NCBI GenBank assembly: GCA_945787445.1
Contig: CALZHT010000028.1
Span: 1-57,071, forward strand
Reading direction: 5' to 3'
Source of the DNA: an uncultured Desulfobulbaceae bacterium
GTDB taxonomy: Bacteria; Desulfobacterota; Desulfobulbia; Desulfobulbales; CALZHT01
Length of the DNA: 57,071 bases
Part shown: positions 38,257 to 48,869 of the stretch, piece by piece
Layout: each line of letters begins with the position of its first letter
How positions within the stretch are numbered: position 1 is the first letter of the stretch
Translations under genes and position numbers: made by a program
The notes under the pieces: generated by a model
Seen by the model: only the letters and a program-made list of their open reading frames with translations
What the model was told of the DNA's origin: nothing
The model's database searches: none

Positions 38257-38559
38257 ATGGACAAAAAAGCACCCAAAAAACATGACGAATCTCTTGATCC
38301 GGAATTCTTAGCCAGTGTGTGCAAGGCATTGGGGCATCCCGCCCGTGTCAGTATCATGCAGTTTTTACGAAATACCGACCACTGCATCTGCGGTGAAATT
38401 GTGGAGCTTCTGCCCCTTGCCCAATCCACCGTAAGCCAGCATTTAAAATGTTTGAAGGACGCTGGACTGATAAAAGGTGAAATTGAAGGTCCCCGCACCT
38501 GCTATTGTGTAAACAAAGATATATTGAACAAATTTTTGCAAATGGCTGGTGCACTCTAA
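38257..38559 (+). CDS. ArsR/SmtB-family metalloregulator linked to hgcA
   Basis: 100 residues, a winged helix-turn-helix with recognition helix QSTVSQHLKCLKDAGLI. It has two close Cys pairs: CIC (in NTDHCICGEI, the position of the ArsR type-1 site CVC) and CYC (in PRTCYCVNKD), plus an N-terminal Cys (ASVCKAL). These could bind a soft metal or arsenite and release DNA. It is 35 bp upstream of hgcA on the same strand. ArsR-like genes have been noted beside hgcAB in other methylators. The inducer here is unknown. Confidence 0.85.
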   Translation: MDKKAPKKHDESLDPEFLASVCKALGHPARVSIMQFLRNTDHCICGEIVELLPLAQSTVSQHLKCLKDAGLIKGEIEGPRTCYCVNKDILNKFLQMAGAL

Positions 38560-38594: not shown

Positions 38595-39800
38595 ATGAAC
38601 ATTCTTGATCAAAAAGAAAAAGGATGCTGCGGCACCGAAAAATCTTGCGGTCCGGAAGCACCATTGCAGGGCCTGCAGATATTACCCGTGCCCAAGGTGG
38701 ACGACGAACCCTGCTGCGGGCCGCCAGCCGGTCCTGAAAGCAGCCCGCTTGAAAGGCCGGGATACATGCTCTGGCATTTTGTCGAAGGTCTCATCAATAC
38801 GCCGGCCGGGCCGGTGCCCAAGGTGAAAACAGTCCTTGAACGGCCTGATCATCTGGGTACGGCGCGGGCCCGCTTCGGCTATAAGCGTAATCAGTATACA
38901 ATTGCCCCTGGGCTTTATGGCGTTGGCACACCGGGACCTGAATCCCCAATCCTGGTAACAGCCAACTACAAACTCTCCTTTGACAGCCTGCGTAAAGAAT
39001 TGACCGGCCTTGATTCCTGGATACTTGTCATAGACACCCGAGGCATCAATGTCTGGTGCGCGGCCGGCAAAGGTACTTTTGCAACATCGGAAATAGCCCG
39101 CCGGGTCAGAAACACCAACCTTGAAAAAATTGTGAACCACAGGGAACTTATCCTGCCGCAGCTTGGCGCCCCTGGTGTTTCCGCCCATCTCCTCAAAAAG
39201 AATTGCGGCTTTAAAGGGATATGGGGTCCAATCCGGGCCAGTGACATAAAGGCCTTTCTTAATTCAGGAAAAAAGGCGCCGCCGTCCATGCGCACAGCCA
39301 CCTTCTCAATGCTTGAGCGGTTGGTACTGGTACCGGTGGAAATCTCTTTGATCATCAGACCTACCTTATGGATATTCCTTGCTTTTTTTATCCTTTCAGG
39401 TATCAGCCCCGATATCTTTTCCATTACTGCCGCCTGGCAACGATCCCTTATGGTCGTGGCAGCCTATATTGCCGGAGTCTTTGCAGGCGCGGTAGCCGCC
39501 CCCGCACTTCTGCCCTGGATTCCCTCAAGAATTTTCGCCCTTAAGGGCATTATAATAGGACTTCTGGCAGGTGCAGGCATCACTGCAATGTATTGGGATG
39601 CCATCGGAGTATTGGAATCCTTAACCTTACTCCTCTGCGCTACGGCAGTCAGCTCCTATGCCGCCATGAACTTTACCGGCGCCACTCCTTTCACATCACC
39701 ATCCGGGGTGGAAAAAGAAATGCGCCGGTTTATTCCGGTGCAGGCTGTTGCGGTTGTAGTTGCTGCTATCACCTGGATTATTGCTCCATTTACTACATAA
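38595..39800 (+). CDS. hgcA: Mercury-methylation corrinoid protein HgcA
   Basis: 401 residues. The defining cap-helix motif N-V-W-C-A-A-G-K is at residues 152-159, with Cys155 as the presumed lower axial ligand of cobalamin. Before it are other HgcA landmarks (CCGPPAGP near 40, HFVEGLINTPAGPVPKVKT, ITVTANYKLSFD-like VTANYKLSFD). After it come KTGLxK-like NTNLEKIVNHRELILPQLGA, and then five membrane helices from about residue 255 to the end. HgcA transfers a methyl group to inorganic Hg(II), receiving it via its corrinoid. It is the second gene of an ArsR-led unit. Its usual partner hgcB is separated by an unusually long gap. Confidence 0.95.
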   Translation: MNILDQKEKGCCGTEKSCGPEAPLQGLQILPVPKVDDEPCCGPPAGPESSPLERPGYMLWHFVEGLINTPAGPVPKVKTVLERPDHLGTARARFGYKRNQYTIAPGLYGVGTPGPESPILVTANYKLSFDSLRKELTGLDSWILVIDTRGINVWCAAGKGTFATSEIARRVRNTNLEKIVNHRELILPQLGAPGVSAHLLKKNCGFKGIWGPIRASDIKAFLNSGKKAPPSMRTATFSMLERLVLVPVEISLIIRPTLWIFLAFFILSGISPDIFSITAAWQRSLMVVAAYIAGVFAGAVAAPALLPWIPSRIFALKGIIIGLLAGAGITAMYWDAIGVLESLTLLLCATAVSSYAAMNFTGATPFTSPSGVEKEMRRFIPVQAVAVVVAAITWIIAPFTT

Positions 39801-40163: not shown

Positions 40164-40269
40164 GTTTGATATAGATTGCAAGCTCAATATGACCATAAGA
40201 GTAAATTATTTTAAAAATACTTTATCGACTTTACAGATTAGAGCACTTTGGAACAAAAAGGACAACTCA

Positions 40270-40563
40270 ATGGAAACCTTCAGATATCTTCCCGATGTAT
40301 CAACCCTTCAACTTGATGAATCCACCTGCATAGGCTGCGGCAGCTGCCAACTCGTCTGTCCGCATGGTGTTTTTGCGGTCGAACCACAGGGCAAGGCCAA
40401 GATCATGGATAAAAACGGCTGTATGGAATGCGGCGCCTGCGCGCAAAACTGCCCGGTCAATGCCCTTACAGTCACCCCCGGGGTGGGCTGCGCTTCATAC
40501 ATCATTCAAGTATGGATCAAAGGCAAGGATAAAGCAGCCTGCGGCAGCATAGAGTGTTGTTGA
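40270..40563 (+). CDS. hgcB: Mercury-methylation ferredoxin HgcB
   Basis: 97 residues from the ATG at 40270 (METFRYLPDV, the usual HgcB beginning); an upstream in-frame ATG at 40189 lacks conservation. Two [4Fe-4S] motifs are present: Cys20, 23, 26, 30 and Cys51, 54, 57, 61, the second within CMECGACAQNC. Cys74 (GVGCAS) and the terminal Cys pair 96-97 are the other hallmarks and probably carry Hg(II) to HgcA. It reduces the HgcA corrinoid. The start is about 470 bp after hgcA, so it may need its own promoter; TTGATA at 40166 with TATGAC 16 bases on is a weak candidate. Confidence 0.93.
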   Translation: METFRYLPDVSTLQLDESTCIGCGSCQLVCPHGVFAVEPQGKAKIMDKNGCMECGACAQNCPVNALTVTPGVGCASYIIQVWIKGKDKAACGSIECC

Positions 40564-40970: not shown

Positions 40971-43298
40971 ATGACTGCCAGCTTCCTTTTTATCCATATA
41001 AATGAATGGGCTCCTCCGGATTCTCCTGACGCTGTCCCCATATCACTGGCCTATATTTTAGCGTATCTCAAAAAACATGGATACGACGGCACCATTCTCG
41101 GAGACTACAAAAGCGCGCCACTTTCTCCGCAACTCCTGAAAAAAACCATCACTTCCCTGCGTCCGAAAGCGCTGGGCTTCACGGTTTATGATGAGAATAT
41201 CAACAGGATGCGGTCCTGGGCACGGTTTGCCAAAAAGATCGATCCGGATCTTACCATTGTCCTGGGCGGCCCCCAGATAACTTTTATGCCGGGCCAGGCT
41301 CTGCTCGATCTTTCCGAAGCGGATATCCTTTGCCGGGGCAATGGCGAACCTGTGATGCTCGCTCTGGCCAAATCCTTGGAATCCGATGGAAGCTTTAAGG
41401 AGGTGAAGGGCATCTGCTATCGGAATAACAGTAAAATCATTGAAACTGCTCCATGCCTAGGGGTGGAAGATCTGGACGACCTCCCCTCTCCCTATCTTGA
41501 AGACCTTGTGGACCTTTCTGGAAAAACCAGGGTCATTCTCCTTTCTTCCCGGGGCTGTACTTCACCGTGCACCTTCTGCTATACAACCAGGGCGAGCGGC
41601 AAAAAAATCCGCTTCCATTCCATTGACCGGATGATTGCCGAGATGGAGCACCTCAAGAATAAAGGGATCACAGATTTCTGGTTTGCCGACCCCAACTTCG
41701 CCTATTCAAGGAAACGGTTGGTTTCATTGCTTGAGGCCATGATCAAAATTGTACCCGGCATTGAGTTCTGGTGCCAGACCAGATACAACCTGGTGGACCC
41801 GGAACTCCTTGATCTTATGAAACGCGCCGGAGCAAGGACCCTAGCATTCGGCCTCGAATCAGCCAACCAGCCCGTTCTCAAAAATATCAACAAGGGTTTG
41901 GACCTTGAAAGGCTTGCAAAAGCAATCCGTATGACCCAGGATGCCGGGATCGAGGTGGAGCTTTTCACCATGTTCGGCCTGCCGGGTGAAACTCTTGAAC
42001 AGGCAGGAAAAACCCTGGATTTCGTAAAGCAAAACAACGTTGCCGTTGAAGGAAACTCCATATCGCAGCAATTGCATATTTTCTTCGGCACTCCCATTAA
42101 TGATGACCTAAACTCCAACCATATTACGCCGTTGTCCATAACCAAACCATCGTATCTCAGCATATGCCGTGATTTTGAAACAGATACCATGTCAGCGGCA
42201 CAAATCCGGCAGATGAGTCTTCACTGGCGGCTGAACCGCAGAGACTATGCAGAAGATGAACATATCAATATCTTTGAGAAAGCGGGCTTCATAACCACAA
42301 ACCATGAAGAACTCCGCATCCGGTCAGAGGCAGGCATGCACCTTGCCAGGATATATATGGAACTTGAAGAATACGAAGGAGCCCATGAATGTCTGGCAAG
42401 GCTCAAAAGGGACTTTTCTGCAGAGGCTGAAGTACAAAATTTTCTGGCAGGGCCATTTACAGGATATAAGGTGAAACGCAGGTCCGTAGCAGAGCATGGC
42501 TGCAAGGTCATTTTTGACTGCAAGGGCATGATCAGCGGCAAAGTCATCCCTGCAACCGAAACATATTATCAGGAAGGAGTTCTTGGTGATGGAACCCTGC
42601 TGCCGGATTTTGAAAAGGGAATTACAGGGCTGAAAGCAGGACGCTGGACCCAGTTTGATGTGACCTTCCCGGATGACTATGGCAACCAGGAGCTTGCCGG
42701 CAGGACTGCTACTTTCCAGGTTGTGCTTCATCTGGTCATGGAACCGGTCACCATGGAAAATATGGAAGATATCAGAAGTAGGCTGCCGCCCAACAAATAC
42801 AGGTTTACAGACCTGCAATCTCTACGGGAAAACAATGAAAAACTCTACTATATGGTCCTCCGAGACACATCCATGCGCGGCGTCACCCAGGACATGACCG
42901 ACTATCTCACTTTGGTAAACTTTTACCTGAAACTCGGCTTCTTTGACAAGGCCTGGGAAATGGCCGGGGTACTGCCGGAAGAACCCGGGATGCGAAATCA
43001 CGCCAGCAAAATATATCTCGCCAACGGCCGTGCCCGGGAAGCGCTCTCACTCATTGATCCGGTTGCAGCGCACTCCACGGAAACAAAAATCACCCAGATT
43101 AAATGTTTCATAAAACTTGAACGTTACAATGAGGCGGAACAGCTGGCCGGCGATCCTGCTCTGACAAAAGAACTCCAGGCCCTTGACCTGCGGGTCGGGA
43201 TTGCTTCCTATTTGCAGCTTCCGGAAGAAACCTATTTACAGCGAATGGACGACCTTTTGGAAAACCAAGTGGAATCCATGATACGCGATGCCGGGTGA
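40971..43298 (+). CDS. B12-binding-type radical SAM protein fused to an FKBP/trigger-factor-like domain and helical repeats
   Basis: 775 residues. About 1-140 is a cobalamin-binding-type Rossmann domain (VPISLAYILAYLKKHGYDG, LGGPQITFMP). A radical SAM barrel (about 185-420) follows, with Cys196, Cys200 and Cys203 in RGCTSPCTFCY and the GxxxGPGETxE-like LFTMFGLPGETLEQ. Around 500-590 the sequence matches the peptidyl-prolyl isomerase fold of trigger factor/FKBP: VLGDGTLLPDFEKGITGLKAGRW, FDVTFPDDYGNQELAGRTATFQV. The last 180 residues are TPR-like helices. It is convergent with rsmI and lies about 400 bp after hgcB on the same strand. The substrate is unknown. Confidence 0.85.
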   Translation: MTASFLFIHINEWAPPDSPDAVPISLAYILAYLKKHGYDGTILGDYKSAPLSPQLLKKTITSLRPKALGFTVYDENINRMRSWARFAKKIDPDLTIVLGGPQITFMPGQALLDLSEADILCRGNGEPVMLALAKSLESDGSFKEVKGICYRNNSKIIETAPCLGVEDLDDLPSPYLEDLVDLSGKTRVILLSSRGCTSPCTFCYTTRASGKKIRFHSIDRMIAEMEHLKNKGITDFWFADPNFAYSRKRLVSLLEAMIKIVPGIEFWCQTRYNLVDPELLDLMKRAGARTLAFGLESANQPVLKNINKGLDLERLAKAIRMTQDAGIEVELFTMFGLPGETLEQAGKTLDFVKQNNVAVEGNSISQQLHIFFGTPINDDLNSNHITPLSITKPSYLSICRDFETDTMSAAQIRQMSLHWRLNRRDYAEDEHINIFEKAGFITTNHEELRIRSEAGMHLARIYMELEEYEGAHECLARLKRDFSAEAEVQNFLAGPFTGYKVKRRSVAEHGCKVIFDCKGMISGKVIPATETYYQEGVLGDGTLLPDFEKGITGLKAGRWTQFDVTFPDDYGNQELAGRTATFQVVLHLVMEPVTMENMEDIRSRLPPNKYRFTDLQSLRENNEKLYYMVLRDTSMRGVTQDMTDYLTLVNFYLKLGFFDKAWEMAGVLPEEPGMRNHASKIYLANGRAREALSLIDPVAAHSTETKITQIKCFIKLERYNEAEQLAGDPALTKELQALDLRVGIASYLQLPEETYLQRMDDLLENQVESMIRDAG

Positions 43299-47278: not shown

Positions 47279-47638
47279 ATGGAAGAAATAAAAATCGATT
47301 CATGCCAATGCCGCATTATTCATGAAGAGCTGGTTGCAGAGGCAAGGAAAAACGCGCTGGCAACATCCGAGGTTGAAGAACTTGCCTACCTTTTCAAGGC
47401 CTTTGCTGATGGATCACGGATGAAAATATTGTTGGCTCTTATTCAAAACGAAATGTGTGTATGCGACCTTGCCGCACTCCTATCCATTTCGGAATCAGCG
47501 GTAAGCCATCAATTGAGGTTGTTGCGCACCATGCGGCTGGTCACCAACCGGAGAGAGGGAGCAGTTCTTTACTATCGCCTCAATGACGACCACGTCAATG
47601 AACTCATCCGCGTGGCACTGGAACATATTCGCGAATAA
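47279..47638 (+). CDS. ArsR/SmtB-family metal-responsive repressor
   Basis: 119 residues, winged helix-turn-helix (LSISESAVSHQLRLLRTMRLV). It has a CVCDL motif (NEMCVCDLAALL), the SmtB/CadC alpha-3N-type Cys pair, and an N-terminal CQC (DSCQCRIIHEE) that could complete a CadC-like site for Cd, Pb or Zn. A C-terminal DDHVNELIRVALEH contains alpha-5-type ligands. It lies 28 bp before the permease gene. It is distinct from the hgc-linked ArsR in both metal motifs and operator. Confidence 0.88.
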   Translation: MEEIKIDSCQCRIIHEELVAEARKNALATSEVEELAYLFKAFADGSRMKILLALIQNEMCVCDLAALLSISESAVSHQLRLLRTMRLVTNRREGAVLYYRLNDDHVNELIRVALEHIRE

Positions 47639-47666
47639 CACTTTTTAATTTTATGGATACTACACA

Positions 47667-48869
47667 ATGACATTCATCGTAAATATACTACTTGAATCAT
47701 GGCATCTGCTGCTCGATTCCGCCATATATATCATTTTCGGCCTGCTCATTGGCGGACTTCTCAAAGTCTTTCTTTCTCCCTCTTATGTGGCCTCTCATTT
47801 GGGAAAGGGTCGATTTACCTCGGTTTTCAAGGCTGCTCTGCTCGGCATCCCGATCCCTTTATGTTCCTGCGGCGTGCTGCCGGCTGCCGCGTCATTAAAA
47901 AAACAAGGGGCCAACAACGGCGCCACCACCGCCTTTCTGATTTCAACCCCGGAATCCGGGGTGGATTCCATCAGTATTACCTATGCCCTGCTCGACCCTA
48001 TCATGACGGTGGCACGGCCTGTTGCGGCATTTATTACCGCCTTTGCCGCCGGCATCATGGAAAACCTCAGCAACCGTCCTTCACAGGAATCCACCTTGGC
48101 GCCGGATCTCAGTTGTACCATTGACAATTGTTGCGATGGTCTTGACTGCCATCCCGACGACCACTCCCGCCACCACACCTTTTTTGAAAAGCTGCGGTCC
48201 GGGATCAACTACGCCAGAGGTGAACTCTGGGGTGATCTGGCAGGCTGGTTTTTCATCGGCCTTCTTCTAGGCGGTATAATCACCGCACTGGTGCCGCAAG
48301 ATATCATGAGCAGCTATCTCGGTGGCGGCTTGAGCTCCATGCTCATTATGCTGGCAGTGGGTATCCCTTTATATATCTGCGCTACAGCCTCCACTCCCAT
48401 TGCCGCCGCCCTCATCCTCAAAGGAGTGAGCCCCGGCGCAGCGCTTGTCTTCCTGTTGGTGGGACCTGCTACCAACATGGCTTCCCTTTCCGTAATCACC
48501 GGATTGCTGGGCAAAAGAGCAACGGCCAGGTACCTCATCACTCTGTCAATATTCGCCGTCATGTGCGGTCTGGCAGTGGATGTTATCTATAGTGGCTTTG
48601 GCATTTCCCCGCAGGCGGTTATCGGTCAGGCAGCTGAAGTAATTCCCTATCCTGTACAGTTGGTCGGAACTCTTCTCCTTCTTGCCCTTTCCATTAAACC
48701 TCTCAGCAGGGATATCCTCTACTACTTCAGGAAAAAAAGCGGCACGGGATCTGTCAGCCAAGGAGAAGAGGCCTGCGGCTGTACATCGTGCGATACTGCT
48801 ACGCCTTTTCCAATGTCACATTCGCCCAAAGATACGACGGATTGCCATCCAGGCAAAGGATGCTGCTGA
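47667..48869 (+). CDS. SO_0444-type Cu/Zn efflux permease
   Basis: 400 residues, about eight to ten membrane helices. The family signature LCSCGVLPAAASLKKQGANNGATTAFLISTPESG is present in helix 2-3. A soluble loop near 155-180 is rich in Cys, His and Asp (CTIDNCCDGLDCHPDDHSRHH), and the C-terminal tail has further ligands (CGCTSC, DCHPGKGCC). These suggest capture and export of Zn, Cu or Cd. Its pairing with a CadC/SmtB-like repressor fits a resistance unit. A role with the hgc locus is possible only by proximity. Confidence 0.82.
   Translation: MTFIVNILLESWHLLLDSAIYIIFGLLIGGLLKVFLSPSYVASHLGKGRFTSVFKAALLGIPIPLCSCGVLPAAASLKKQGANNGATTAFLISTPESGVDSISITYALLDPIMTVARPVAAFITAFAAGIMENLSNRPSQESTLAPDLSCTIDNCCDGLDCHPDDHSRHHTFFEKLRSGINYARGELWGDLAGWFFIGLLLGGIITALVPQDIMSSYLGGGLSSMLIMLAVGIPLYICATASTPIAAALILKGVSPGAALVFLLVGPATNMASLSVITGLLGKRATARYLITLSIFAVMCGLAVDVIYSGFGISPQAVIGQAAEVIPYPVQLVGTLLLLALSIKPLSRDILYYFRKKSGTGSVSQGEEACGCTSCDTATPFPMSHSPKDTTDCHPGKGCC

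Follow-up and report, generated by a model that had tools for sequence, protein, structure and literature searches.

What does a radical SAM protein act upon when a trigger-factor-type prolyl isomerase is built into its C-terminal half, and does a position just behind the mercury-methylation genes hgcAB say anything about its role? The question is raised by an open reading frame in a 57,071-nucleotide stretch of a contig from an uncultured Desulfobulbaceae bacterium (the whole of this stretch is called the window below). The frame, at 40971-43298 on the + strand, starts with ATG, encodes 775 residues and is free of internal stops, at exactly the coordinates given in a preliminary description that had been made from the letters alone.

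Domains of the protein and integrity of the gene

The protein begins with a B12-binding (Rossmann) domain (residues 20-132, 41028-41366; Pfam PF02310, E 8e-16), followed by a radical SAM barrel (residues 192-352, 41544-42026; PF04055, E 2e-25) that carries its CxxxCxxC [4Fe-4S] motif at C196, C200 and C203 (41556-41579). Downstream come a TPR segment (residues 453-493, 42327-42449; PF14559, TPR_19, E 4e-8), a trigger-factor-type FKBP, or prolyl isomerase, region (residues 500-624, 42468-42842; TIGR00115, E 2.5e-20), whose Pfam core is FKBP_C (PF00254, residues 507-586, E 1.3e-7), and a TPR-like tail with its best stretch at residues 680-726 (43008-43148), where the Pfam matches are weak and below cut-off; all these features lie on the + strand. 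The B12-binding, Radical_SAM, TPR_19 and FKBP_C matches all exceed the curated cut-offs. Thus, the cobalamin-binding-type domain, the CxxxCxxC barrel, the trigger-factor/FKBP segment and the TPR-like tail of the preliminary description were all recovered, the three profiles that it had proposed for a search (PF02310, PF04055 and PF00254) being matched above cut-off and the two stretches on which it had recognized an isomerase, VTFPDDY and LAGRTATFQV, both falling inside the FKBP segment.

The three cysteines of the cluster motif are invariant in 44 of 44 aligned homologs, as is a GGPQ block (G99, G100, P101, Q102) in the B12-binding domain; no DxHxxG motif was seen within residues 20-132. The protein is best read as a free-standing class B (cobalamin-type) radical SAM enzyme that probably binds a corrinoid. 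Its catalytic half resembles PhpK, ApyD, HpnJ, BchE and TokK/CysS in having an N-terminal B12-binding Rossmann domain ahead of a CxxxCxxC radical SAM barrel. In TokK, TsrM and OxsB, the cobalt sits above the residue that follows strand 3 of the B12 domain, which is Trp, Arg and Asn, respectively (PMC13331322). The corresponding position, aligned through CysS, is E75 in the present protein and is variable overall (Glu in 23 and Arg in 15 of 44 sequences), with Arg in the short forms described below.

An assembly chimera is excluded, since the complete fusion was found again, at 53-59% identity, on unrelated contigs of 22 further genomes of the order. The frame is full-length in 19 of these; in the remaining three it is split across two contigs, interrupted by an in-frame stop or broken by an internal gap. 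A recent foreign origin was considered from base composition and rejected, the GC content of the gene (49.7%, against 46.9% in the window) being unremarkable.

The FKBP region covers only positions 143-262 of the 410 in the NCBIfam trigger factor profile, and its 73 bits against a cut-off of 180 are to be expected because a single domain is being matched against a whole-protein cut-off. The segment aligns without gaps, over 85 residues and at an offset of 349, to residues 159-243 of the E. coli trigger factor (PDB 1w26; E 9e-9), and a PDB sequence search with it returned trigger factors alone. Single-sequence prediction of the full-length protein gave a mean pLDDT of 38.5. When residues 495-605 were modelled by AlphaFold2 from the one sequence, the pLDDT was a moderate 66, and the best structural matches of the model were trigger factors (1t11, E 7e-5), ahead of mostly other FKBPs; the FKBP fold predicted for residues 490-600 on the strength of short sequence matches was therefore borne out. 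In the E. coli trigger factor, the isomerase pocket is lined by F198, F217, Y221 and F233. Their equivalents F547, F566, Y570 and F582 are kept in 28, 29, 28 and 24 of 29 fused homologs, respectively, and this conservation extends to families at 35-41% identity. The prolyl-isomerase site is thus preserved, and the domain is probably an active isomerase. Within the order, the mean identity of the FKBP part (56%) is nearly that of the catalytic half (59-62%), which indicates that the domain is under selection; the tail is the least conserved part (43%). The same genome also encodes a complete trigger factor of its own (380 bits), so the domain does not serve as a substitute for one. Unlike trigger factor, the 775-residue protein has no ribosome-binding N-domain, and its FKBP is an insertion into a radical SAM enzyme, flanked by TPR segments.

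A family with one-gene and two-gene forms

Beyond the order, fused homologs occur in four other families of the phylum at 33-49% identity. A short form, consisting of the B12-binding and radical SAM domains only (426-482 residues, 38-44% identity), was found in at least seven families of the phylum. A tree of fused and short forms, built without outgroups, parts the two by a single branch (SH-aLRT 99%). At 15 of 16 short-form loci (L078, L112-L119, L121 and L129-L133), a same-strand gene for a TPR protein of 445-647 residues lies no more than 4 kb away, L120 being the sole exception; in 14 of them it is the very next gene, often overlapping by a few bases. Five of these partners were scanned and proved to be TPR-rich and devoid of an FKBP domain. 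The two-gene version shares with the fusion the catalytic half (38-43% identical) and its invariant residues, and differs from it in drawing its TPR module from a separate gene and in having no FKBP. The presence of this gene beside the enzyme in the arm-less sister branch shows that the TPR module accompanies the enzyme whether fused or split. The stable theme of the family is thus a B12-radical SAM protein plus TPR, in one-gene and two-gene arrangements.

One draft genome (G415) carries both forms, a long, partial one (L102) and a short one (L129); contamination is possible there, and if the observation is genuine the two may not be simple replacements for each other. A scan of genome contigs with the single sequence found only one weak, unrelated B12-radical SAM protein. 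As a separate observation, the N-terminal half of the TPR partner contains an invariant cysteine and a conserved Cx9Gx4C...CxxC pattern, which presumably resembles the SPASM/twitch auxiliary-cluster motif and is possibly an auxiliary iron-sulfur site.

The catalytic half finds its best NCBIfam matches in PhpK, ApyD, HpnJ and BchE (E 1e-36 to 1e-39), with scores far below the cut-offs: 135.6 bits against 600 for PhpK, 132.8 against 750 for ApyD and 127.5 against 481 for BchE. No named subfamily profile (these four, TIGR03975, TIGR04014 and others) reached its curated cut-off, either with the fused protein or with the short forms, and no NCBIfam equivalog covers the family in either form. The structurally characterised cobalamin-dependent radical SAM enzymes covered by one review include none with an FKBP or TPR domain (PMC13331322). 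Among the papers searched, none describes a protein that unites a radical SAM barrel and cobalamin binding with an FKBP or trigger-factor domain. This is an undescribed family of class B radical SAM enzymes, and the substrate-handling arm is its new part.

Possible substrates of the enzyme

We put at about even the chance that this cobalamin-type radical SAM enzyme acts on a polypeptide presented to it by the FKBP/TPR arm, in line with the preliminary suggestion of a protein or peptide substrate. The domain profiles, the kept isomerase pocket and the two-gene version, in which a TPR partner is dedicated to the enzyme, all support this reading. The C-terminal TPR-FKBP-TPR arm would capture an extended or proline-containing stretch of a protein or peptide, and its FKBP could isomerise prolyl bonds within the captured segment. 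The arm would then present the segment to the radical SAM active site, where the C196/C200/C203 cluster and SAM would generate radical chemistry beside a corrinoid held in the N-terminal Rossmann domain, leading to C-methylation or another radical modification. To our knowledge, a protein has been established as the substrate of only a handful of B12-dependent radical SAM enzymes. If the arm does capture the substrate, the family would show how such enzymes seize folded or unfolded proteins, and the occurrence of one-gene and two-gene versions makes the recruiting module directly testable by swap or removal.

The catalytic half says little about the matter. Peptide-acting enzymes, ApyD and rSAM_ocin_1, are among its top profile matches, and its score to ApyD is about the same as its scores to PhpK, BchE and HpnJ, which act on small molecules or lipids, all of them far below cut-off. 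With such near-equal scores, the case for a polypeptide rests on the FKBP/TPR arm and not on the catalytic half, which by itself does not indicate a peptide. Further observations also count against a polypeptide. No neighbouring gene or small open reading frame that could encode the substrate is conserved across families; in one distant fused homolog (L111) the FKBP signature is largely gone; and in the f70 homologs the FKBP score falls under the Pfam cut-off.

Another explanation, possible though somewhat doubtful, is that the arm is a docking scaffold only, attaching the enzyme to a partner complex or membrane assembly, and that a small molecule, lipid or tetrapyrrole is what the radical SAM half modifies. 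BchE, HpnJ, HpnR and PhpK act on substrates of this kind, the catalytic half scores alike with PhpK, ApyD, HpnJ and BchE and well under every cut-off, TPRs bind proteins generally, and L111 retains the tail without the FKBP signature. A degenerate scaffold, however, need not keep an aromatic pocket, and F547, F566 and Y570 are each kept in at least 28 of the 29 fused homologs. Nor are there recurring biosynthetic genes in the neighbourhood: the neighbours of the fused form are conserved only among close relatives, none of them across families.

If the substrate is a polypeptide presented by the arm, it might be an unfolded or nascent chain of a housekeeping protein, bound and oriented by the trigger-factor-derived arm; this narrower proposal we regard as rather unlikely. 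It is more doubtful still that the enzyme matures a RiPP, its substrate being a small dedicated precursor whose gene lies elsewhere or has been missed. Ribosomal peptides are indeed modified by B12-radical SAM enzymes (PMC12257519), and the peptide-modifying ApyD stands among the top profile matches. ApyD, PbsB and rSAM_ocin_1 belong to the same enzyme class and would, by hypothesis, share a peptide substrate with the present protein, but there is no precursor gene, cluster or leader-binding partner near its gene. Small open reading frames of at least 20 codons within 900 bases are not conserved beyond close relatives, no protease or transporter genes recur, and leader-binding domains are not usually large TPR/FKBP arms.

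The hgcAB neighbourhood

The hgcAB genes lie just upstream of the gene for the 775-residue protein, as had been noted, and both are genuine by curated cut-offs: hgcA, encoding the mercury-methylation corrinoid protein, at 38595-39800 (+; NF040863, 440 bits against 275) and hgcB, encoding a ferredoxin, at 40189-40563 (+; NF040864, 118 bits against 99). An ArsR-family regulator gene upstream of hgcA (38257-38559, +; PF01022), a neighbour only, is syntenic with hgcAB in relatives. A shared operon with hgcAB was considered and rejected. The gap between hgcB and the gene under study is 407 bases, with all genes on the same strand; on the + strand of this gap no match to a sigma-70-type promoter or a terminator was found, but the promoter-scan count was near the shuffled expectation, which makes that scan uninformative.

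This arrangement had led to the suggestion that the protein might mature HgcA. The same-strand adjacency speaks for it, as do the corrinoid nature of HgcA and the report that SAM is the methyl donor of HgcAB (PMC11588087). In the 258 genomes of the class, however, the fused form is present in 23, hgcA in 139 and both in 10, so that hgcA is not commoner in carriers of the fusion (10 of 23) than in non-carriers (129 of 235; Fisher p=0.38). Among 96 relatives the corresponding numbers are 16, 52 (hgcA above cut-off) and 7 (p=0.42). Thirteen carriers of the fusion have no hgcA match. The two are found on one contig in this window only and elsewhere always on separate contigs, and no homolog of the fusion occurs in 20 hgcA neighbourhoods of relatives, surveyed over up to 20 kb. 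The preliminary description had itself named a lack of co-occurrence with hgcAB outside this genome as grounds for refutation, and by that yardstick its idea fails. A genome of the same family (G002) has ruvB-ruvA-ruvC-yebC-rlmE-arsR-hgcA-hgcB in the same order as the window, but the genes that follow hgcB are different ones, and its genome lacks any homolog of the fusion. Moreover, in an assay with SAM as methyl donor, purified HgcAB was reported to suffice for the first half-reaction (PMC11588087), which leaves no obvious gap for the 775-residue protein to fill. The adjacency to hgcAB is coincidental and peculiar to this one genome, and it is most improbable that the protein has a part in the maturation or modification of HgcA or supports mercury methylation in some other way. 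Those who look for HgcA-maturation genes thereby have one misleading candidate fewer to consider.

Another gene pair gave better clues to partners of hgcA. Further downstream in the window, at 47279-48869, lie genes for an ArsR regulator and a permease of the SO_0444 family (NF033936, 412 bits against 300), relatives of which occur in at least 200 of the 258 genomes of the class. In at least 13 of the 139 genomes with hgcA, belonging to several genera, arsR, permease and hgcA genes follow one another on one strand (loci L154-L165 and L138); hgcB comes next in at least 12 of these genomes, and in at least nine of the loci the permease gene and hgcA overlap by 4 bases. By our estimate, such an adjacency would arise by chance only rarely, about once in thousands of genes per genome. 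In one genome (G034), the permease and HgcA are joined in a single frame of 758 residues (L145:8197-10473), with hgcB next; the two halves (permease 15-339 and HgcA 426-756) score 395 and 433 bits, both above curated cut-offs, although an assembly error is possible in this single case. The arsR-permease-hgcA operon and the permease-HgcA fusion suggest a transporter that works with HgcA, in Hg(II) import or methylmercury export. Among the papers listed by a literature search, none mentions hgcA together with ArsP; in a selenoproteome review of 2026, HgcA and SO_0444 appear as separate entries.

A single in-frame TGA is present in the SO_0444-family permease genes of many relatives, and in hgcA of one genome (G018), which is compatible with selenocysteine, a residue listed for both families (PMC13188914). 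Finally, three genomes (G045, G059 and G070) encode HgcA-like proteins that match positions 28-282 of the HgcA profile with 179-186 bits, against the cut-off of 275; these are possibly HgcA paralogs of other function.
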